A DNA stretch of 32,292 bases, from positions 1-32,292 of the forward strand of contig QZJD01000053.1 in the NCBI GenBank assembly GCA_003604995.1, written 5' to 3'. Made by a program: the position numbers and the translations under genes. Source of the stretch: Desulfobulbus sp. GTDB lineage: Bacteria; Desulfobacterota; Desulfobulbia; Desulfobulbales; Desulfobulbaceae. The notes beneath the pieces were generated by a model that was not told the DNA's origin, did not search any database, and was given only the letters and a program-made list of their open reading frames with translations. This document shows positions 198-31,856 of this stretch, piece by piece (the first letter of the stretch is position 1; the number at the start of each line of letters is the position of its first letter).

Positions 198-2090
198 ATG
201 TTGAGTATATTGCGCAAGCGTGCCCAGTCCACCGTCATCCAGATCGTGGTCCTTATTATTGCCATCGTCTTTGTCTTCTGGGGGGTGGGGACCAACTTGG
301 GCGGCCGTCGCAATACTCTGGCCACGGTCAACGGCGAGGAAATTCCCTTTGACGCATTTCAACGCAATTACGACAATGCCGTGGATAATCTGCGGGTCCA
401 GTTCGGCGGTTCTATTCCCCCGGGGTTTCTGGAAGGGCTCGGCCTGAACCGGCAGGTCCTCAACCAGCTGATCCAGGCTGAAATCCTGCGCCAGGGAGGC
501 CGGGAAATGGGAATCATGGTCAGCAAACTGACCACCCAGGATGAAATCAAAGATATGAGCGTGTTTCAAACGAACGGCCAGTTCGATCTGAATCTGTACA
601 AGGCGGTTCTGGAGCAGAATCGGATGAACCCGACGTCCTTTGAAACCGGTCTGCAAAATGATCTGCTGGCCAGGCTGGTGAGCGAGGCCATTCAGGGCTT
701 TGCCGAGGTGCCGGACAGTCTGATTGCCTCACGGCATGATTACAGCAGGGAGCAGATCCGGCTCGTTTACAGCGCGGTGAAGAGCGAAGACCTGCGGGAC
801 GCGGTGGAGGTGAACGACAAGGATCTGGCGGCCTGGTATGAGCAGCGGAAGAATGACTATCTGCCGCCGCCCATGAGCAAGTTGCAGTATCTGTTTTTTA
901 AGTATGACGAGGATCTCGACCAGGTCACGGTCAGTGAAGAGGCTCTCAAGGCCAGGTATGAGGCGGAACGCGACAAATATTTTCAGCCTGAGCAGCGCCG
1001 GGCCCGGCATATCCTGCTGCGGGTGACGGAACAGGACGATGTCCAGACCAGGGCCGACAAAAAAAAGAAGGCGGAGGAGATCCTGGCCGAGGCCAGGGCG
1101 GGCAAGGATTTTGCGGAACTGGCCCGCCAACATTCCGAGGATTCTTCTGCTGAAAACGGCGGCGATCTTGGGTTCTTCAGCAAGGGCGCCATGGTCGAAT
1201 CCTTTGACAGCGCGGTATCCCAGCTGAAGCCTGGTGAAATCAGCCCGGTGGTGGAGACGGTCTTCGGCTATCATATCATCAAGCTTGAAGAGATCCGGGA
1301 GGCGACCACCCGTTCCTTCGAGCAGGTCAAGGAGGAGCTGGCCGACCAGATTCGGCGCCAGGATGGCAAGGGCCTGACGTTCAAGAGGGCCTCACAGGCC
1401 TATGAAGATATCTTCCGCGCCGGCAGCCTGGCCAGATATCAGGAGAGCCATCAGGAAGCGGTCAAGGAAACTGATTTTTTCAGCCGCAACGAACCGCCCG
1501 CGGAACCGGTTTCCGATCCGCAGTTTCTGCAGGCGGCTTTTTCCCTGAAAAAAGGGGAACTGAGTTCCATCATCGAGACCGGTAAAGGGTATGCCATCGT
1601 TTTCGTGAGCGACACCCAGGTTCCGGCCGCCCCGGAATTGAGCGAAGTGCGGCAACAGGTCGAAGCCGCTTTTCGGGTGGAAAAAAGCGTGGAGTTGGCA
1701 AAGGCGAGGGCGGAAACATTGTTGAAGGAGGCGCGGGACAAGAAAAGTTTGCGCGAGGCCGCCCCGAAGGAGATAGCGGTTCAGGAATCAGGGGCGATCC
1801 TTCGCTCCAATCCGGCCAGCAGCGGTGAGGTGCCCGCTCAGGTGGTGCAGCAGGCCTTTGGCCTGACCATGAAAGAACCGCTGCCCGCGGAACCGGTGGC
1901 CATCGGTGATACCTTTTATGTGTTTCAGCTCCTGGAGAAAAGTCTTGCGGAGAAGTCCCTGGACGACAAGGAAAAAGATCAGCTCCGTCAGCAGTTGCTG
2001 GCCGCCGCGGAAAACGACCTGATGGCCGACTGGCTGACCTGGATGCAGAGTCGAGCCGAAATCTGGGTCAACGAAGATCTGCTGAAATAG
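198..2090 (+). CDS. ppiD: PpiD/SurA-like membrane-anchored peptidyl-prolyl isomerase
   Basis: This is probably a periplasmic folding factor of the PpiD type, held in the inner membrane, that helps newly exported envelope proteins fold. A single uncleaved transmembrane helix spans about residues 13-33 after a short basic N-terminus. A SurA-N/PpiD-like chaperone region follows. A parvulin (PpiC-type rotamase) domain spans about residues 266-363, with the family's ARHILL start (His271), a GGDLGFF turn and the closing FGYHIIKL (His359). The C-terminal half is a second chaperone-like region, as in PpiD. At 630 residues it is close to E. coli PpiD (623). The start is supported by AAAGGAG just upstream. 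It appears to be a single-gene unit, followed by a 52-base palindrome. Family assignment is firm; the exact orthology (PpiD or SurA-like) is less so. Confidence 0.85.
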   Translation: MLSILRKRAQSTVIQIVVLIIAIVFVFWGVGTNLGGRRNTLATVNGEEIPFDAFQRNYDNAVDNLRVQFGGSIPPGFLEGLGLNRQVLNQLIQAEILRQGGREMGIMVSKLTTQDEIKDMSVFQTNGQFDLNLYKAVLEQNRMNPTSFETGLQNDLLARLVSEAIQGFAEVPDSLIASRHDYSREQIRLVYSAVKSEDLRDAVEVNDKDLAAWYEQRKNDYLPPPMSKLQYLFFKYDEDLDQVTVSEEALKARYEAERDKYFQPEQRRARHILLRVTEQDDVQTRADKKKKAEEILAEARAGKDFAELARQHSEDSSAENGGDLGFFSKGAMVESFDSAVSQLKPGEISPVVETVFGYHIIKLEEIREATTRSFEQVKEELADQIRRQDGKGLTFKRASQAYEDIFRAGSLARYQESHQEAVKETDFFSRNEPPAEPVSDPQFLQAAFSLKKGELSSIIETGKGYAIVFVSDTQVPAAPELSEVRQQVEAAFRVEKSVELAKARAETLLKEARDKKSLREAAPKEIAVQESGAILRSNPASSGEVPAQVVQQAFGLTMKEPLPAEPVAIGDTFYVFQLLEKSLAEKSLDDKEKDQLRQQLLAAAENDLMADWLTWMQSRAEIWVNEDLLK

Positions 2091-23308: not shown

Positions 23309-24259
23309 TCAACCCCGGCCTTGAAGGGTTGGGATGGGCAGCGCGCTGATTTCGCGGGCGAGCTGCAGGAATTGCCTGGCAACGGGACAGTCGGCATCGT
23401 ACTGACTGACCGGCAGGTTGACGATCTGCGATTCTTTCATCTTTTCATCGAGTTCAATGACCGTGTTCAGCACCCGGCTGCCGAACAGGTCTCGAATCTT
23501 GCGGTAAATGACCTTGGCGGCGGTGCTGCGGGGATCATGCATGGAGATCAGGATCCGGTAGTCAAGTTCTCGTCCGGTTTTTTTCTGCACCACCTTGATG
23601 ATGTCCTCGATTTTATGAATGCCGTGCATGGACAGGTATTCGCAGGGGGTGGGGATCAACACCCGGTGGGCGGCCATCAGGGCATTGAGGGTGCAGAAAT
23701 CGAGGGCTGGTGGGGTATCGAGAAGAATGAAATCAAAACGCTCGATAACCCATTGCAGTCGATCGCGCAGGAGAAATTCAAAATTGGGCCGGTACATATA
23801 GTGCTTGGTCAGCAGTGCCATCCGGCTGTTCGAAGGCAGCAGGCTCAGGTTGGGGTAGCGACTTGCGTGGACATGGGGCAGAAGGTTGTCGGCGCCGCTT
23901 TGCAGGATGTCGAAGAACGAGGCCGAGTTACTTGAGAAGCCCAGGGCGGTCGTCAGGTTTGCCTGGACGTCGAAATCGATCAGCAGGACCTTGTTCCCCT
24001 CCTGCGCCAGGGCCATGCCCAGATTGAGGCAGGTGGTGGTTTTGGCCACCCCTCCTTTCTGGTTGCTGATGGCGATGACCTGATGTCGTCGGCCTGCTTC
24101 CGGTTCTTCCGGGCGAAACAGCTCCGCGTCCCGCTCAAGTTTTTTACGGACCACGAAAGCGTGATTGCACTGCGCGCAGCGGACCTTGAAGGTGGGCTTG
24201 GAAATGGCTGAGACATCCAGATTGTAGCGGCTGTTGCACTTTTCGCATTGGATGAGCAT
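23309..24259 (-). CDS. ParA-family ATPase with N-terminal zinc ribbon
   Basis: A ParA/MinD-type P-loop ATPase, the group that positions plasmids, chromosomes or protein arrays using ATP-dependent gradients. The N-terminus (residues 1-40) is a zinc ribbon with Cys5, Cys8, Cys28 and Cys31, of the MJ0042/zinc-ribbon-5 kind. The deviant Walker A KGGVAKTT (68-75) has the signature Lys68 and Lys73. FDVQANLTTALG and LLDTPPALD are the switch and Walker B regions. At 316 residues it is a ParA of ordinary size plus the ribbon. Its ATG is 2 bases after the CheA-like stop, with AAGGAA overlapping that gene's end, so the two are coupled. ParA proteins beside che genes (ParC, PpfA) place chemosensory arrays in other bacteria; the same role is inferred here. 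No ParB is adjacent. Confidence 0.88.
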   Translation of the reverse strand: MLIQCEKCNSRYNLDVSAISKPTFKVRCAQCNHAFVVRKKLERDAELFRPEEPEAGRRHQVIAISNQKGGVAKTTTCLNLGMALAQEGNKVLLIDFDVQANLTTALGFSSNSASFFDILQSGADNLLPHVHASRYPNLSLLPSNSRMALLTKHYMYRPNFEFLLRDRLQWVIERFDFILLDTPPALDFCTLNALMAAHRVLIPTPCEYLSMHGIHKIEDIIKVVQKKTGRELDYRILISMHDPRSTAAKVIYRKIRDLFGSRVLNTVIELDEKMKESQIVNLPVSQYDADCPVARQFLQLAREISALPIPTLQGRG

Positions 24260-24261
24260 GG

Positions 24262-27200
24262 TCAGTTCCTTGCTGCGGCTGTTGCCGTTTTCATGAGTCC
24301 TGATACGTCGGCAATAAAGGAAAAGTCACCATCGCCCTTGATGGGTGCGCCGGCAGGCTCGTGATGGTCACGCATATGTTCGGCCAATGGCTTGACCGCG
24401 ATCTCTTCCAGGCCGATCAGCTCATCCACGAGCAGGCCGATGAGACCTTCATCGGTATTGATCACCACCACCGGAAAACGCGGCCCGTGCTCCCGGGCAC
24501 CCTCCACCCCGGCCAGGCCGGCCAGGGAATGGAACGGGATGTTTTCAGCGCGATAGGAAATCTGCTCGCCACCATCACCCTGAATCAAAAGTTCCGAGGA
24601 CGCCCGTAGTATTTCCTCGACACCGGACAAGGGCAGGGCGAAAACCTCGCCACCGGCCCGGACCTTCAACACCCGGAAGGTCGGCAGCTTCAACGGCACC
24701 AGCAGCCGGATGCAGGTGCCCTGACCAACCGTTGTGCTGCACTGAATTATGCCGCCCAGCCCGTCGATGATCGACTTGACCCGATCAAGGCCAGGTATCC
24801 GGGCGTTCGGCGGCGCGCCGGGTTCGGTGCTGAAGCCGGGCGTCATGATCAGGCGGGTCAGGTCATGGTCCGACATCCTGTAGAGTTCATCGCCGCTGAA
24901 CATCTGCCGCGCTAACGCCGTCGCCTTGATGATTTTGGGGTCGATGCCCCGCCCGTCATCGATTACCTCAATAACTACATAATTTCCCTCATGGGCGGCG
25001 CGCAGGGTGATGGCGCCCGTATCGCTTTTCCCGAGTTGCCGACGTTCCGCGGGTGATTCGATGCCATGCTCAACTCCATTGGTGATCAGGTGGAGCAGGC
25101 AATCGTTGATATCCTGGACGCTGAATTGGTCTATTTCCGTGTCCTCGCCCTGGATGCGCAGCTCCACCCGTCGTTTACTCTTTTGGGCGAGATCGGCCAG
25201 CACCTCATGGTACAGCTCGAACAGCCGGCCGGCCGGGATCATCTTCACTTTGAGGATGCCATCACGGATCTCGCCGGAAACACGCCTTAAGGAGCTGGTA
25301 GCTTCCTGCAGGCGGCCCAGCAGGTCCTGCAGGGGGGAGAGTTCGGTACGGTCCGTAATACTGGCCTCCCGCAGGCGATGGCGGAGATTGCCTACCTCCT
25401 GGTACAGGTGAGCGAGGGCGGAGCGATTGGCGACCAGTTCGCCGACTTGATCCAGCAGGCTGTCGAGACGGCCAGCATCCAGACCGAAGGATTGCCTGAT
25501 ATCCGGGGCGGAGATCTGCCCCTGCGCTTCGGAGGGAGGAGTTTTTTCAGAGGGCGCGATGTCCGCGGCGGCCAGAATTTCTTCAATAACCTGATCAATG
25601 GGTTTTGCCGCCGCCTGGTCGTCATCTTCAGCGGTTGCCTCCAGGGCTCCAAGCAGGCGCTCGAAGAGCTTGCGTTCTTCCTCGGTTTCTCGGACATCCT
25701 GGCCGGTCTGCGGTTCGGAAACCGCTTTAGCGGCCCTGGCCTTGGATTTGTCCATGGCCGCTTCCAGGGTGGGGACTTCCTCCTCCATGGATTTCAGGGC
25801 ATCGCTGAGCTTGCGGAAGAGCTCCTGGCGCTCCGGAGGGGTGCTCTCTGTTTCCGGGGTCGAGGCTTCCTCGGGAACGGTTTCCTCTTCGATGTCGTTG
25901 AACAGGGCGGTAAGATCATCAACCGGTTCGGTGAATTTCTTGCGTGACAACGGCGAGGGCATTTCCTCAAAAAGCAGATCCGCGGCAGGGGAATCACCAA
26001 AGGCGGCAAGGGCTTCGTCTTCCACATCGAAATCCAGGTCGTCTCCACCCTCGGCGGCGGCGAAGAGTTCTTCAACATCCTCGATCATCGGCTTGGTTGG
26101 GGCCGTGAGCTGTTCATCATCATCCAGAAACAGAGACTCGATATCCTCCCCCGGTTTTTTTCGTGGGGCTTCCTGCGCGGGAGCTCCGGCTGGTTCTTCT
26201 CCGCTGAGTGCGGCTATGGGTTCCGCACCGATGTCAAAAGAGACCTCTTCGCCTTCGATAAATTCACCGAAGAAATTTTCAATTTCAGGTAGGGTGTTTT
26301 CCTCGGCTGAAGCGGATTCTTCCACGTCGAACTGGAGTTCGGCACCGGCAAGGGCGGCAACGGGCTCAGGTTCTGAAGACGGCGCAGGTTCTTCATCTTC
26401 AAAGAGATACGCTGCATCCGGCGTCGTCTTATCCAAAGGAGTTTGCGGGGCGGGCGCTTTCGTTGGGGTCAGATCCGGCAGATCCACGCCAAAAGTGCTA
26501 AAGAATTCATCTACTTCTGAAACGGCTGCTTCCTTGATACGTGGAACGGCCCTGGTCTCGATAAACTCGTCGGCGCTGCTGAGTGCGGCGACTGGTTCCG
26601 GCTCCGGCGCGTTTTCTTCATCGGTAAGGGGATTTTCCACAGATAGGGACGGGGCAAGAAGAGGGGCCGCTTCGTGTTCATCGCCAAAAAAATTGTCCAC
26701 CTCCGGCAGGTCGGCGTCCAAGACCATGTGGGGTTCCTGCCAACGCTCTTCTTCATCGTACCCGGTCAGGGCGGCAACAGGCGCGGAATCGTCCAGGAAA
26801 GCCTCTTCATCCTCTTCCTCATCGTCCATGCCGATGAAAAGCTCCTTGAAGGATTCGCTCTCATCCGGCACATTTTCTTTCGGTTTCTTGGGAGGGGGGG
26901 GAGGGGCGGCCGGTTCGGGAACAATGGTGACGGGCGCGGACACTTCCTTGACTTCAGGGAATATTTCCAGGATTTTGCCGATCTTCTCGTCCATGAAGGC
27001 GAATGGCACAGCCGTACCCATGGACAGGTCGACGCCGGCCATTTCCAGTTCAGCGATCCACTGCAGGTAATATTCGGCCAGCTGGTCGTACCCCATGTAA
27101 TTCGCCGAGGCCTGCAGCTTGCCGACCAGCGCCGAACACTGGTCCACAATGGCAGATTTGTGCGCTTCCTTTGAATATCTGTCAACCAGGGTCCTCAGTT

Positions 27201-28437
27201 GGGACAGATTTTCCTGAAGCTGATCGACAAAAATTTGAAAAAGCTCCTTGTCAAATGCCGCACTCTGTCGCTCCTGATCGAAAAATGATGGGTCAAGCGT
27301 GACCGGCGCGGCTTGAATTCGTTTTTTTCGGGAAAGGGCCGCGCCTGTTTTTGGAGGTTCTGAATGAGGCTTTCGTTCGGGAGGTTCATGGCCGGAAAGC
27401 GCGGCAACAGGTTCGGCTGACCCGTCGAAGGTAGTTGCCATGTCGCCGAAAAAATCAGAGAACGGTTCGCCGTCTCCCGCTTTTGCACTGGTCTGAGCTA
27501 TGGCCGATGCGACAGACTGCGGCGGGGAGAGTTCGCCCCAGGCTTTGCGGACAGCGGCGGCGCTGGCCGGGGTGTCCTGCACTTGCGGGAACAGGCCGGC
27601 GATCATCGTGAGCCGTTCTTCCATGAAGGAAAGGGAGGTCGGAGTGCCCATGGTCAACTCGACCCCGGCCATTTCAAGTTCCGCCACCCACTGGAGGTAA
27701 TAATCGGCCAGTCGGTCGTAGCCCATATAATTGGCCGAAGTCTGTAATCTGCCGACCAGCTCCGAGCAAAGGGTGATGATTTTCGCCTGGTTGGGTGCTG
27801 CCGGATAATCGTTGATCAACGCCCGCAACAGCGAAATGTTTTCCTGCATCTGTTCGATGAATATCTGAAACAGCTCACGGTCATACTCCTGTTTTCTGAT
27901 TTCGTCGGGAAGCAGGGAAGACGCGTCTTCCGCTTCCTCGGCCACAGGATCCGTTGCTGGAAACTCCAAGGCGGGGGTGAGCTGCTCCAAGGCTGAAAAA
28001 GGGTCTGCTGGCTGAACAGGGGGGAGCGGCGAGGTCGCCGGCTGAACAACCTCGGAGGTCGCTGCCATCTCTTGCTGGATGCGTTTGAGCAGGTCCTTTA
28101 CCGTTGCCCGTTCTTTGTCCGTGGTATTCAGGTCATGGAGGAGCTTGCTCAGTCTGTCGCGACCGGCGGCAAGGATGTCGATCTTTTCCGGGTTGACGGC
28201 AAGGCGGTCCTGGCGAATTTGCTGCAGAAGGTTTTCCAGGTGAAAGCAGAGTTCGGAAATGCGGCCGAGTCCGGCCGGCAGTGCGCCATTTTTGATCGCA
28301 TGGACTGCACGGTAAATATCGTTGAGGAACTCCCGGTCATTGGGGTTCTTCTCATGCTTGAGCAAGCTCTGCTTGATCTGCTCAAGCCGGTCCGTGGCCT
28401 GGTCTATGAAACCGGCGTATTTGGAGGAGTCAGCCAT
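24262..28437 (-). CDS. CheA-like histidine kinase with one intact and two degenerate Hpt domains and a motif-rich linker
   Basis: A 1391-residue chemosensory kinase. Residues 1-110 are an Hpt domain with the likely phospho-accepting His46 in AVHAIKNGA. Residues 185-287 and 394-496 are two closely similar Hpt-like domains (each with LQxSANYMGYD and AELEMAGV) in which the His aligns with Gly, so they cannot take phosphate. A long acidic, probably disordered linker (about 500-970) carries PVAAL(S/T/A)G-type motifs near 341-349, 551-559, 614-621, 691-698 and 739-746, the first lying between the two Hpt-like domains. The conserved end has a dimerisation helix pair (about 985-1075), a CheA-type ATPase with N-box HLITNGVEHGIE, DDGRGID and GLDRVK (about 1110-1245), and a CheW-like domain (about 1250-1385). 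The multi-Hpt layout recalls PilL/ChpA of type IV pilus systems. It sits between the chemoreceptor and ParA genes. Confidence 0.9.
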   Translation of the reverse strand: MADSSKYAGFIDQATDRLEQIKQSLLKHEKNPNDREFLNDIYRAVHAIKNGALPAGLGRISELCFHLENLLQQIRQDRLAVNPEKIDILAAGRDRLSKLLHDLNTTDKERATVKDLLKRIQQEMAATSEVVQPATSPLPPVQPADPFSALEQLTPALEFPATDPVAEEAEDASSLLPDEIRKQEYDRELFQIFIEQMQENISLLRALINDYPAAPNQAKIITLCSELVGRLQTSANYMGYDRLADYYLQWVAELEMAGVELTMGTPTSLSFMEERLTMIAGLFPQVQDTPASAAAVRKAWGELSPPQSVASAIAQTSAKAGDGEPFSDFFGDMATTFDGSAEPVAALSGHEPPERKPHSEPPKTGAALSRKKRIQAAPVTLDPSFFDQERQSAAFDKELFQIFVDQLQENLSQLRTLVDRYSKEAHKSAIVDQCSALVGKLQASANYMGYDQLAEYYLQWIAELEMAGVDLSMGTAVPFAFMDEKIGKILEIFPEVKEVSAPVTIVPEPAAPPPPPKKPKENVPDESESFKELFIGMDDEEEDEEAFLDDSAPVAALTGYDEEERWQEPHMVLDADLPEVDNFFGDEHEAAPLLAPSLSVENPLTDEENAPEPEPVAALSSADEFIETRAVPRIKEAAVSEVDEFFSTFGVDLPDLTPTKAPAPQTPLDKTTPDAAYLFEDEEPAPSSEPEPVAALAGAELQFDVEESASAEENTLPEIENFFGEFIEGEEVSFDIGAEPIAALSGEEPAGAPAQEAPRKKPGEDIESLFLDDDEQLTAPTKPMIEDVEELFAAAEGGDDLDFDVEDEALAAFGDSPAADLLFEEMPSPLSRKKFTEPVDDLTALFNDIEEETVPEEASTPETESTPPERQELFRKLSDALKSMEEEVPTLEAAMDKSKARAAKAVSEPQTGQDVRETEEERKLFERLLGALEATAEDDDQAAAKPIDQVIEEILAAADIAPSEKTPPSEAQGQISAPDIRQSFGLDAGRLDSLLDQVGELVANRSALAHLYQEVGNLRHRLREASITDRTELSPLQDLLGRLQEATSSLRRVSGEIRDGILKVKMIPAGRLFELYHEVLADLAQKSKRRVELRIQGEDTEIDQFSVQDINDCLLHLITNGVEHGIESPAERRQLGKSDTGAITLRAAHEGNYVVIEVIDDGRGIDPKIIKATALARQMFSGDELYRMSDHDLTRLIMTPGFSTEPGAPPNARIPGLDRVKSIIDGLGGIIQCSTTVGQGTCIRLLVPLKLPTFRVLKVRAGGEVFALPLSGVEEILRASSELLIQGDGGEQISYRAENIPFHSLAGLAGVEGAREHGPRFPVVVINTDEGLIGLLVDELIGLEEIAVKPLAEHMRDHHEPAGAPIKGDGDFSFIADVSGLMKTATAAARN

Positions 28438-28573: not shown

Positions 28574-30898
28574 TCAGCTTTGGCTGCCATGGCCGGCGGC
28601 CCTGGTCGATAAATGCTGAACCGCGTTGTCGTCCTGGTCATCCTGAAGGATTTTTTTCATCATGTCTTCCAGGGGTTGCTCTTCCTCGGCCGGGGTGCGG
28701 GAAAGTGCTTCAAGTTGGGCAAGTCCGTCCGCTATGGCGCCGTTCAGAGGTTCGATCTCCCGGGTCAGGGAGTGCAGCCTGCCCCCGATTTGGTCGAATT
28801 CGGCAAGGAGCGCGCCGGTTTCGCCGACTTCCGTCTGGATGGCCGAGGCCCTGTTGCTCAGTTCCTCGATCTGTCCCAGACACGAAGTTGCGGTTGCGGC
28901 AAGGTGCTGAAGGGCTTGGCGCGTTTCATGGCCTGCTTGTTCACCCCCGGTGATACCAGCGTTGAGGTCGTCAAGCAGTCGGGTAACGTCCCGGGCGGTT
29001 TGCATGGCCTGCTTGGCCAGTTTATCCAGCTCTTCGGTGGCCGAACTCAATTCCTTGTCCGGTACGCCGGCGCGGCTCGCCTTGATGGCTGCATTCAGGG
29101 CCATTACGCTGGTCTGCTCGGTAAGTTCGGTGAAGGCGTTGACAATCTGGGCGATTTCCCCGGCCGGCAGGGAGAGGTTCGACAGGGTGTCGATCGCGTT
29201 GTTTATCGACTGCTCACAACCTGTCAGAGCCTGTTGCAGATTTCCCTTTTGTTCCGACAGGCCGTCAGTCAGATACTGCATCTGTTCGGTATCGGTTCGC
29301 AGCCGATCGACAACGGTACTGACCTGGTTCGCCACCTCTTTCTGTTGCAAAAAGCTACCGGTGAGTTGTCCCTCATGCTCCGCTTTGTCGCGAAGGCATC
29401 GTGAAAGGTGACCGGTATTCTGGGACAGGCTCGCAAGAAGGTCCTCGCTGCCGCCGGCATTTGCTGTTTGCTGGCGGTACAGGATGTTCAGGGCGCCGGC
29501 CAGACCGTCAAACTCGTTTTTTTCGAGAGGGAAGGCCAGATTCGGATCACCTTGGGCCGCCATGCGGTGGGCAATGTCGGTCATTCGCTGAAGGGGTGCG
29601 GCAAGGGATGCGGTGAGCTTCCGGGAGATGAACAGGAGGACGAGCACCGTGGCCAGCCAGGAACCGGCAATGACGGCTAGACTCAGCATCGGCACCCGGC
29701 CGGCTGTTGGCGGAGGAGAAGGGGCCGGGAGCGATACCTTGGGGGCAGACGCCGTGATTTGTTTCTCGAGTGCGGCAAAGTTGTTGTCAACGTCTGCCTC
29801 CAGGGCGGCGATTATCCTGTTCTGTTCCACCAGGGCGGCAAAGGCCGCCTGATTTTCCAGAATAACAGATTTCATGGCGTTTTTCCGTGCATCCGACGGA
29901 GCGGAGGAATCCAAGGCGTTGAGGGCCTCTTCCAACATTTTCGCAACCAGCGCCGCGCCGGCCGCATCACCTTGCTTCAGGTATGCTTCTTCCTGTTGGC
30001 GGAGGGTTTGAAGTGAATTCTCATCCCGGGATGGACCAAGGGTGCTGTGCAGTTTTTCGAGGTTCAGGGCGGCCTGATGCATGGCCTCTTCCTGTTTGAT
30101 CTGTTCCGCGGCAAAAGAAGCTGCCAGCGCGGGGTCGTTGGTCGTCAGGCTGACCGCCAGGTACCGGTCAAAAGCGGTTAAATAGTTGTTGATGCCGGTC
30201 TGGATGGCCTGGAGTTCCGGAGCGGGCAGTCCGCTTTTCAGCGCGGCCTCGGCCAGCTCATTGGCTGCGGCCGCCAGCAGTCGCTGGTTTTCGACGCCCG
30301 GGGCAGCGAAATAGTTCTGTTCGGCCCTGCCGAGCTTCAGCAATGCTTCTGTCAACCATTGGTTCTTCGCTCCAGGGACGGTCGGAGCGGCGGTAAGATT
30401 TTGGGCGGCCTCTTTCAGTTTCAACCTGAGGCCCGAATCGTCGTTAATCCCCTTGACTTCCCAGGCCTGGACCAGTTCATGAAATGAGGCGTTATAGCGC
30501 GAAACCAGCTGGGACAGCTGCGTCCCCGCCGGGGCATCTTTCCGGTCCTTGCCTTGAGTCTTCTTTCCCAGATCAAGGGCGTGGGCCAGCAGTTTTTTGC
30601 CTGCTTCTTCAAATTGAACCACGCTGGCCGGAGTCTGCTCTTTGCGGAAGGCCTGCTCGATGGCTCTCGCTTCCTGAAGGATCGAGGAGGCCTTGCCCGG
30701 TATCTGCCCGGATTTTACGTTCTGCGCTGCCGGGGACGTGACGGGCCGGGCTGCCGGCTGAGGCAGGGTAATGAGCGTGTAGAGGCTGTAACCGGCCAGG
30801 AGGGTGACCAGCAACAGAACGGCTCCCATGCTCATCTTGATTTTCGACCCGAGTCCGCCCCCGGCATATTTTTTTGAGCCGGAAGATCCTCTGCTCAT
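28574..30898 (-). CDS. Methyl-accepting chemotaxis-like receptor with HBM-like sensor and degenerate signalling tip
   Basis: A membrane chemoreceptor of 774 residues. TM1 is about residues 22-44 and TM2 about 403-425, enclosing a helical periplasmic domain of roughly 357 residues; its length and the RAEQNYFAAPG segment (191-201) suggest a helical bimodular (HBM)-like sensor, which in other receptors binds organic acids. A HAMP domain follows (about 426-480). The cytoplasmic coiled coil keeps the tip region as TEQTSVMALNAAIKASRAG (593-611), but the normal continuation (GEqGRGFAVVA) is replaced by VPDKELSSATEELDKLAKQ. The signalling domain ends early, with no C-terminal CheR-tethering pentapeptide. 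A strong GAGGAGGAGGAA precedes the ATG. It is presumably the input for the CheA-like kinase encoded next; the ligand is unknown. Confidence 0.86.
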   Translation of the reverse strand: MSRGSSGSKKYAGGGLGSKIKMSMGAVLLLVTLLAGYSLYTLITLPQPAARPVTSPAAQNVKSGQIPGKASSILQEARAIEQAFRKEQTPASVVQFEEAGKKLLAHALDLGKKTQGKDRKDAPAGTQLSQLVSRYNASFHELVQAWEVKGINDDSGLRLKLKEAAQNLTAAPTVPGAKNQWLTEALLKLGRAEQNYFAAPGVENQRLLAAAANELAEAALKSGLPAPELQAIQTGINNYLTAFDRYLAVSLTTNDPALAASFAAEQIKQEEAMHQAALNLEKLHSTLGPSRDENSLQTLRQQEEAYLKQGDAAGAALVAKMLEEALNALDSSAPSDARKNAMKSVILENQAAFAALVEQNRIIAALEADVDNNFAALEKQITASAPKVSLPAPSPPPTAGRVPMLSLAVIAGSWLATVLVLLFISRKLTASLAAPLQRMTDIAHRMAAQGDPNLAFPLEKNEFDGLAGALNILYRQQTANAGGSEDLLASLSQNTGHLSRCLRDKAEHEGQLTGSFLQQKEVANQVSTVVDRLRTDTEQMQYLTDGLSEQKGNLQQALTGCEQSINNAIDTLSNLSLPAGEIAQIVNAFTELTEQTSVMALNAAIKASRAGVPDKELSSATEELDKLAKQAMQTARDVTRLLDDLNAGITGGEQAGHETRQALQHLAATATSCLGQIEELSNRASAIQTEVGETGALLAEFDQIGGRLHSLTREIEPLNGAIADGLAQLEALSRTPAEEEQPLEDMMKKILQDDQDDNAVQHLSTRAAGHGSQS

Positions 30899-30998: not shown

Positions 30999-31691
30999 TC
31001 AGTCATCGTCATCGCCGTCCTGGGGAATGACCTCAGTACCCTGCATCATCATCGCGGTCAGGGTATTGTCGGTTTCGTGGGAAAACACTTCGGGCAAAGG
31101 CTTGATCCAGTACCTGGCCGGACCCCAGCTCAGCATTTCCTGCAGCGCTCCTACCCCGGCCTGCTGTTCTGTCCGGACATCGCTGATCACGCCGTTCTCG
31201 AATATAAATGTCCCTTTTTTGTCCAGTCCGGCACTGGCTTCCAGCAGACATGACTTCTGCATCATGTTGATCAGCGGGAGCATGGCCGGAATATAGATGC
31301 CGGGCCGGAAATTGATTTCGTCGCGACAGTCGAGCATCCTGATGATTTCGCCGTGGAGCCGGATGTGGTTGAAGGGTTTATTGATATAGCTGAACAGACT
31401 GTCGCCCTGGAATTTTTTTCTCAGTGCATGGTCGCGCAGGGAGGTGGTGACGATGCAGAGCATGTTCGGGTATTCCCGGGTCACGGTAGCCAGCAGTTCA
31501 ACACCGTCCATTCTCGGCATCTGCAAGTCGGTGACCAGGATGACCGCCTTGGTCGATTTAAGAATGGCCAGTGCCTGGACGCCGTGGACCGCGGTCTGGA
31601 TATCAAACTGGCCAAATTTCTGCAGTCCTGTTTTGAGGCTGCCAAGCAGCTTGACATCGTCATCCACGATCAGAATCTTATCTTTTCCCAT
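30999..31691 (-). CDS. Response regulator with receiver and PATAN-like (DUF4388) domains
   Basis: The first gene of the chemosensory locus. A complete receiver fills residues 1-122, with Asp10-Asp12, phospho-acceptor Asp55 in VTDLQMPRMDG, Thr83 and Lys105 in NKPF. Residues about 128-200 resemble a PATAN/DUF4388 domain (IPAMLPLINMM, GTFIFENGVISD and ALQEMLSWG). This domain occurs in cyanobacterial PatA-type regulators of pilus phototaxis, where the order is PATAN then REC. An acidic tail GDDDD ends the 230 residues. The frame continues upstream to 31775, but ATG at 31691 (MGKDKILIVDD) is the natural start. No DNA-binding or enzymatic domain is present, so it probably works by protein contacts as an output of the CheA-like kinase. 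It has a strong promoter about 300 bases upstream. Confidence 0.85.
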   Translation of the reverse strand: MGKDKILIVDDDVKLLGSLKTGLQKFGQFDIQTAVHGVQALAILKSTKAVILVTDLQMPRMDGVELLATVTREYPNMLCIVTTSLRDHALRKKFQGDSLFSYINKPFNHIRLHGEIIRMLDCRDEINFRPGIYIPAMLPLINMMQKSCLLEASAGLDKKGTFIFENGVISDVRTEQQAGVGALQEMLSWGPARYWIKPLPEVFSHETDNTLTAMMMQGTEVIPQDGDDDD

Positions 31692-31774
31692 GGAGCAACC
31701 TGATGATAAAATTTTCGCAATGCATATCCCGTTGTTCGGGAAAGTAAAAATACATCGTATCCTTTTGATCCCCA

Positions 31775-31856
31775 CGCAAAATGTGTCGACCGTGGCATGC
31801 CTCCTTCGGGAGGCACGAGAGTCTGGAGCATGCCGTCATCGGAAAAGCATTTTGCG
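31775..31856. other. Structured leader or RNA with nested stems and a UUCG tetraloop
   Basis: CGCAAAATG (31775-31783) pairs perfectly with CATTTTGCG (31848-31856). Inside, GGCATGC (31794-31800) is matched by GCATGCC (31828-31834). Innermost, GCCTCC (31799-31804) and GGAGGC (31809-31814) flank TTCG, the classic stable C(UUCG)G tetraloop when read on the plus strand. On the minus strand it would lie in the leader of the response regulator mRNA with loop CGAA. Which strand is transcribed as the working RNA is open; the tetraloop favours plus, the promoter at 32007-32036 favours minus. Confidence 0.45.

Follow-up and report, generated by a model that had tools for sequence, protein, structure and literature searches.

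P2 is an optional domain in the CheA family and is absent from many CheA proteins. The CheY-binding peptide of FliM includes EIDALLNG. FliM docks on CheY at the α4-β5-α5 face, where I11, D12, and L14 make contacts (PMC3774744). In Vibrio CheA, the LID domain has the CheW-like AIF domain of ParP as its binding partner; LID is described as one domain and occurs only alongside an associated ParA-like localisation system (PMC5706961). Pseudomonas ChpA, of the Pil-Chp system, is a large CheA-type kinase with several Xpt domains (PMC12632253). Reports on ALR domains (PMC4395418) and FrzS (PMC1974792) describe degenerate two-component proteins that keep binding roles after loss of the phospho-residue.

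The window analysed here (the whole 32,292-nt stretch of Desulfobulbus sp. contig QZJD01000053.1) contains a cluster that can be compared with each of these systems (Table 1). As in the Vibrio CheA-LID/ParP/ParC system, the cluster has a ParA-like ATPase, here encoded directly after cheA and with intact Walker motifs; unlike the Vibrio system, it has no parP-like or cheW gene, its ParA has an extra zinc-ribbon N-terminus, and the CheA linker carries repeated short peptides rather than one domain. A docking region in the linker of a ParA-linked CheA would not be without precedent, as the Vibrio LID illustrates (PMC5706961). As in ChpA, the kinase is large and has extra domains, here putatively of Hpt type; unlike in ChpA, these domains have G, S, or K at the position aligned with the P1 phospho-site (by-eye reading), with no consistent His, Thr, or Ser, and the protein has a linear-motif array and a ParA in its cluster. 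Like the CheY-binding peptides of FliM and CheZ, the linker motifs are short, acidic, and amphipathic, and EVDxFFG resembles FliM EIDALLNG, with Phe-Phe for Leu-Leu, a likeness of resemblance only. The linker would, like P2, recruit receivers between P1 and P3; unlike P2, it is not a folded domain. Unlike in the case of aspartate-less receivers, decay extends here to several members of a single chemosensory cluster at once. Literature searches on linker motifs of CheA and on CheA pseudokinases returned nothing on point.

Table 1. Features of the cluster in the window, with residue numbers for the CheA-like protein.
Feature	CheA residues	Coordinates	Strand	Remarks
Receiver-DUF4388 response regulator		30999..31775	-	Strongly conserved inside lineage
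MCP-type receptor		28574..30898	-	Signalling tip degenerate
cheA-like gene	1391 aa	24262..28437	-	Pfam, AlphaFold2
P1/Hpt domain	10-97	28147..28410	-	HTIKG to HAIKN; three sister genomes lack the His
Hpt-like domain 1	~187-303	27529..27879	-	Predicted four-helix bundle; P1-site His absent
Linker with motif unit 1				Between Hpt-like domains
EPFSDFFGDM	324-333	27439..27468	-	Acidic-aromatic; pairs with core 1
Core 1, AEPVAALSG	341-349 (EPVAALSG, 342-349)	27391..27414	-	
Hpt-like domain 2	~397-492	26962..27249	-	
Long acidic linker	500-977			
FKELFIGM	530-537	26827..26850	-	Acidic-aromatic; pairs with core 2
Core 2, SAPVAALTG	551-559 (APVAALTG, 552-559)	26761..26784	-	
LPEVDNFFGDE	577-587	26677..26709	-	Acidic-aromatic
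Core 3, EPVAALSS	614-621	26575..26598	-	
SEVDEFFSTFG	640-650	26488..26520	-	Acidic-aromatic
Core 4, EPVAALAG	691-698	26344..26367	-	
LPEIENFFGEF	716-726	26260..26292	-	Acidic-aromatic
Core 5, EPIAALSG	739-746	26200..26223	-	
Three further LF variants	DIESLFLDD 765-773, DVEELFA 787-793, DDLTALFND 840-848	25894..26145	-	
Proposed decayed sixth core, EALAAFGD	808-815	25993..26016	-	Unconserved in orthologue
Tail motif before P3	ERQELFRKLSDALKS (within 868-894), ERKLFERLLGALE (within 920-935), KPIDQVIEEILA (945-956)	25570..25836	-	
P3	987-1063			
P4 ATPase domain	1111-1250	24688..25107	-	G1 box DDGRGID kept; G2 box GRGVGMDVVK to RIPGLDRVK
P5/CheW	1256-1383			
ParA-family ATPase, N-terminal zinc ribbon		23309..24259	-	Directly downstream of cheA; Walker motifs and cysteines intact

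Domain organization and predicted fold of the CheA-like protein

Pfam matches above cut-off were obtained in CheA for Hpt, H-kinase_dim, HATPase_c, and CheW, corresponding to the order P1, P3, P4, P5; P2 has no Pfam match in the protein, and Pfam identifies a single Hpt stretch only. AlphaFold2 confidently predicts helical bundles in both Hpt-like segments. A Foldseek search with a 565-residue multi-domain model of CheA was dominated by CheA P1 structures (E ~2e-3), for which P1 itself is a possible source. Outside the Hpt-like domains, the region lacking P2 is predicted by AlphaFold2 to be disordered. Specifically, the linker has pLDDT <50 and no secondary structure in two models, which were built from shallow alignments (9 and 5 sequences) and of which the second is poor (mean pLDDT 48). 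The linker is as acidic as had been claimed (D+E, 25%; K+R, 7%).

Two alternating motifs in the linker

Five matches to the core pattern (E/A)P(V/I)AAL(S/T/A)(G/S) lie at exactly the residues named in the original prediction, and the four acidic-aromatic strings that it placed between them were also found (starting at residues 324, 577, 640, and 716), the two kinds of motif alternating along the linker. Residue-shuffled linkers contain a mean of 5e-5 core matches, and so the cores are not chance; the most repeated 7-mer identified de novo, AEPVAAL, occurs in 5 copies (shuffles: mean, 2.7; maximum, 4). The DNA pattern of the core occurs at exactly five sites across the 2.64-Mb draft genome, all within cheA, and no other protein of the draft genome was found to contain the motif. 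The copies use different synonymous codons and are therefore not fresh DNA repeats, which rules out recent DNA duplication as their source. The supposed sixth copy, EALAAFGD, was rejected for lack of conservation, its counterpart in the closest orthologue being ETSAALRD. The interval originally assigned to the array starts at residue 341 and misses the acidic-aromatic motif at 324-333; it covers a strongly conserved motif at residues 868-956 and omits any mention of it.

Comparison with the nearest orthologue bore out the expectation that cores are kept while flanks drift: 34/40 core residues (85%) and 151/381 remaining linker residues (40%) are identical (Fisher p = 4e-8), a difference that rests mainly on one close genome pair, one-to-one retention having been seen once, between the window and L057. 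The kinase module is 64% identical to that of the nearest orthologue. Within the lineage described below, PVAALSG is clear in four of six genomes (5, 5, 2, and 2 copies), and the other two, L040 and L041, have one acidic-aromatic motif and no core above threshold, indicating that the reduced system can do without the array. No convincing core was found among orthologues outside the genus-level group, and the core is thus no general family feature. The proposal that preserved cores mark binding sites accordingly gains from their retention amid drifting flanks in a linker predicted to be disordered, and loses from their restriction to one genus. The acidic-aromatic motif is spread more widely across the family than the core: 22 of 28 orthologues carry it above the level expected from shuffling, and its copies in the window are identical to the nearest orthologue at 59/90 residues. 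The expectation that orthologous linkers would share the motifs thus holds for the acidic-aromatic half and fails, beyond the genus, for the PVAALSG half.

A further motif, LFxxLSxALE...IDxVIEEI, precedes P3 and is retained, throughout the order, by almost every orthologue. This tail motif is 47/55 identical to the nearest orthologue, and AlphaFold2 predicts its helices at low confidence.

Gene losses and decayed sites in one lineage

Six related genomes form one lineage, with a cluster lacking cheW, cheY, and a second cheB. In particular, cheW, the cluster cheY, a HAMP-protein gene, and the cheB between cheA and parA are present in most outside loci and in 0/6 lineage loci. A search with an outgroup CheW as query revealed no CheW-like gene in the window or the five sister loci; in L041, the query gave one weak match, located inside cheA.

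The P1 HT/SIKG and P4 GRGVGMDV boxes are intact in 22/22 outside orthologues and altered in 6/6 lineage members, and the receptor tip is altered in 6/6 lineage members. The P1 phospho-His or the receiver Asp is gone in 4/6 members: the His in three, and the Asp in a fourth, L039. The window CheA keeps P1 residues His46, Lys49, and Glu68, together with the N box and G1 box, and so may still be an active kinase. Rates of change are inverted, with P3, P5, and the receptor tip being the most conserved elements outside the lineage and the least conserved inside it (mean identity outside/inside: P3,.86/.42; P5,.87/.40; MCP signalling region,.87/.27). The elements conserved inside the lineage are the Hpt-like domains (.88/.67 for Hpt-like domain 1), the REC-DUF4388 regulator (.73/.68), and ParA (.74/.63). 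Apart from L039, the cluster regulator has a well-conserved α4-β5-α5 face.

Discussion

We propose, giving the idea about an even chance, that this CheA is changing from a kinase into a scaffold and that its linker, intrinsically disordered, acts as a multivalent docking region. The family-wide acidic-aromatic peptide (hydrophobic-D/E-x-hydrophobic-F-x-D/E) would be the older half of the repeat unit, and the genus-specific PVAALSG core, ~10-40 residues further on, the younger half. The unit would have multiplied in the same lineage of six in which cheW, cheY, and one cheB were lost from the cluster and in which constraint appears relaxed on the kinase and dimerisation surfaces, the CheW-like surface, and the receptor tip; this combination suggests that CheA is most likely shifting from array kinase to a scaffold that would gather several copies of a cluster partner beside the ParA ATPase. 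The likeliest partner would be the receiver-DUF4388 regulator, whose recruitment may rely on linear motifs given that the protein lacks a P2 domain, although the conservation of the regulator may serve its own output instead of CheA binding. With the surfaces of the kinase, the CheW-like domain, and the receptor in decay, CheW and P5 are unlikely partners. We infer binding, partner identity, and a scaffold role from the motifs and their selective conservation, the predicted disorder, the gene absences, the catalytic-site changes, and the rate inversion.

The repeats could instead dock the adjacent ParA, making CheA a cargo adaptor like ParB, TlpT, or ParP that is positioned by ParA. The direct succession of cheA and parA in the lineage, where relatives have an intervening cheB, and the intact ATPase and zinc-ribbon motifs of ParA in all loci would fit such a role, for which PpfA-TlpT in Rhodobacter (PMC6829392) and ParC-ParP-CheA LID in Vibrio (PMC5706961) are precedents. 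However, relatives without PVAAL cores also pair CheA with ParA, which means that the presence of cores does not follow that of ParA; the order-wide tail motif tracks ParA better. Known ParA activators use basic peptides, whereas the linker is strongly acidic, and we regard docking of ParA by the repeats as unlikely.

A sticker-and-spacer layout, the lost constraint on P3, P5, and the receptor tip, and the position of unit 1 between two Hpt-like domains that are among the best-conserved parts are all consistent with self-association, in which cores or acidic-aromatic motifs would stick to each other or to the Hpt-like domains and the resulting cluster would take the place of the lost CheW/receptor lattice. 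This is quite unlikely in our judgement: both AlphaFold2 models, albeit from shallow alignments, leave the motifs undocked and unstructured near the Hpt-like domains and kinase core, with no sign of cores docked on either. We consider it distinctly improbable that internal duplication left the repeats behind with no binding role, alike by origin rather than by selection. Low-complexity acidic linkers readily gain and lose repeats, copy number ranges from 0 to 5 between close relatives, and L040 and L041 manage without cores; yet the peptide is kept despite synonymous differences between copies, and between species the cores are more conserved than the flanks and the kinase module.

The multivalent docking reading may tentatively be extended to the whole cluster, as a possibility that we rate below the docking role itself. 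Specifically, a phosphotransfer-free CheA might have been repurposed as a ParA-positioned multivalent scaffold, its linker peptides replacing the receptor/CheW lattice to hold regulators together, and perhaps serving type IV pili by placing the receiver-DUF4388 (PATAN-like) regulator.

The order-wide tail motif offers a separate, well-defined candidate docking element. CheA is usually viewed as an unchanging kinase at the centre of chemosensory arrays. With its array and catalytic surfaces loosened while the Hpt-like domains, linker motifs, regulator, and ParA are kept, the CheA of this lineage would be a natural case of a kinase becoming a scaffold, and a testable case of a CheA that may recruit partners by repeated short peptides in place of a P2 domain.

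Repeated peptides in the linker of a CheA-type kinase

The linker of the CheA-type protein contains five copies of the core (E/A)P(V/I)AAL(S/T/A)(G/S), with acidic-aromatic motifs (e.g. LPEVDNFFGDE) between them, all at the positions of the original prediction. Chance matches to the core pattern average 5e-5 in shuffled linkers of unchanged composition, and a de novo search returned AEPVAAL as the top 7-mer family of the linker. Across the draft genome (2.64 Mb, 74% complete), the core DNA pattern has five matches, all within the cheA gene, and the reversed pattern, serving as control, has one. Synonymous codons vary from copy to copy, indicating that the cores are kept as peptides.

AlphaFold2 predicts confident helical bundles at CheA residues ~187–303 and 397–492, which are 54% identical to one another and look like P1 domains minus the histidine. 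A Foldseek search with the whole model returned CheA P1 structures, matches that P1 itself may explain. The motif-bearing linker stretches, including 520–868 (modelled separately), have no predicted structure, and the tail motif preceding P3 is predicted as a helix at low confidence, in models built on shallow alignments.

Coordinates of the features (the window unless a locus is named)
Feature	Position	Strand	Basis or remark
CheA-type protein, 1391 residues	24262-28437	-	Pfam domains
CheA domains (residues)	Hpt 10-97; H-kinase_dim 987-1063; HATPase_c 1111-1250; CheW 1256-1383		Pfam
Tail motif	25570-25836 (CheA residues 868-956)	-	orthologue comparison
ParA with N-terminal MJ0042-type zinc ribbon	23309-24259	-	kept in 28/28 loci examined
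MCP	28574-30898	-	tip AAIKASRAG vs otherwise invariant AAIEAARAG
Divergent DUF4388-receiver-CheB gene	L057:1507-2967	-	upstream of regulator; also L038, L039, L040, L041
Regulator orthologue	L039:1523-2224	+	TDLQMP to TCLRMR, phospho-aspartate lost
CheA of more distant relatives	L036:7959-12614; L037:7950-12623		three tandem Hpt plus Hpt-like pairs

Cores appear lineage-limited and the tail motif nearly order-wide

The closest CheA orthologue (L057/L033, Desulfobulbaceae MAG UBA10518) has five cores in register with those of the window. As predicted, cores are kept while flanks drift: 34/40 core residues are identical, as compared to 151/381 in the remaining linker (Fisher p = 4e-8), a comparison drawn mostly from one close pair. 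Random five-window linker sets matched the core identity in 35/200,000 draws; both p-values are descriptive only, because motif positions were selected on the window sequence. Identity is 59/90 for the acidic-aromatic motifs, 47/55 for the tail motif, and 262/409 for P3–P5. The predicted decayed sixth core, EALAAFGD, has no counterpart in this orthologue.

Scanning with a profile whose seed copies came from the window, L057, and L038 gave 5, 5, 2, and 2 cores in four genomes of a six-member lineage (the window and its five sisters L057, L038, L039, L040, and L041; two closely related, key genomes drafts), left L040 and L041 below threshold, and detected no convincing cores in orthologues outside it. 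The scan also gave a single match of uncertain meaning in L044 (position 495) and one extra weak match in L039 (position 133); by eye, single decayed core-like strings are visible in L040 (NEALVSALTS) and L055 (TTVLAALSDD). In contrast to the lineage-limited cores, the acidic-aromatic motif exceeds shuffled expectation in 22/28 orthologues, with ALDSIFSDE an example in most of the family and 6–7 copies each in the window, L057, and L039. The linker element of widest observed spread is the tail motif, LFx(R/K)LSxALE followed by I/M-D-x-V-I-E-E-I, present order-wide in nearly all orthologues; it is a better candidate ancestral docking element than the cores.

Cluster reduction and decay of signalling sites

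In relatives from the family and order, the cluster mostly reads MCP, CheW, CheY, HAMP protein, CheA, CheB, zinc-ribbon ParA, preceded by a CheB-type gene (identities by Pfam for L046; presence and absence assessed on retrieved stretches). CheW had no match in L047 or in L034, whose fragment starts incomplete. In the six lineage members, cheW, the cluster cheY, the HAMP gene, and the cheB between cheA and parA are missing from the examined stretches, and receiver-DUF4388 (the regulator), MCP, CheA, and ParA remain. Five sisters have a divergent DUF4388-receiver-CheB gene upstream; the window contig stops before that point. The CheB domain of this gene has a weak score (33 bits vs 117 for the outgroup CheB), and its catalytic motifs appear altered. 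A fully supported branch, within a tree of long branches, separates the six in the kinase tree; in the ParA tree their support is 82/68 and their sister is L055, of the same genus yet with full cluster and canonical kinase.

P1 HT/SIKG and P4 GRGVGMDV are intact in 22/22 outside orthologues, and neither is canonical in the six. L038, L040, and L041 have lost the P1 histidine itself; L039 keeps it, but its regulator phospho-aspartate is Cys. As read from these sequences, CheA in four of the six genomes therefore cannot pass its phosphoryl group to the regulator in the usual way. The window CheA retains His46, Lys49, Glu68, and the G1 box and may thus retain activity. The regulator alpha4 helix has diverged in L039; alpha4-beta5-alpha5 is nearly invariant among sisters. 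The MCP tip, IEAARAG.HGKGFAVVADEV outside, is changed in 6/6 members; the change is E-to-K or similar, with K in 6/6.

Mean pairwise identity outside/inside the lineage is.86/.42 for P3,.81/.49 for P4,.87/.40 for P5,.87/.27 for the MCP signalling region,.88/.67 for Hpt-like-1 (a P1-like bundle),.74/.63 for ParA, and.73 (few pairs)/.68 for the regulator. Relative to ParA, median divergence goes from 0.47 outside to 2.0 inside for P3, from 0.38 to 2.05 for P5, and from 0.49 to 3.0 for the MCP signalling region.

A putative docking linker

Among described systems, the Vibrio CheA LID domain, to which ParP binds and which is connected with ParC (PMC5706961), comes nearest in concept, with a similar ParA logic. 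Unlike LID, the window linker has repeated short peptides, and no ParP-like gene was found in the examined stretches. ChpA shares extra Hpt-type domains (PMC12632253), and PpfA-TlpT is another pairing of ParA with a chemosensory protein (PMC6829392). A literature search that included few subscription journals turned up no CheA whose linker carries repeated motifs.

The most parsimonious reading is of a linker that is disordered and multivalent and whose short peptides would dock cluster partners, in a CheA that sheds its array-kinase role. The likeliest putative partner is the regulator: within the lineage, few proteins of the cluster are as well conserved, CheA is without a P2 domain, and receivers are bound by acidic amphipathic peptides, the FliM N-terminus being one example (PMC3774744). 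The main rivals are ParA as the linker's partner and self-association of the linker.

DUF4388, which the regulator carries besides its receiver, is related to PATAN. Cyanobacterial PATAN-receiver proteins are tied to the type IV pilus (PMC7690835), so pili are a reasonable guess for where the output may act.
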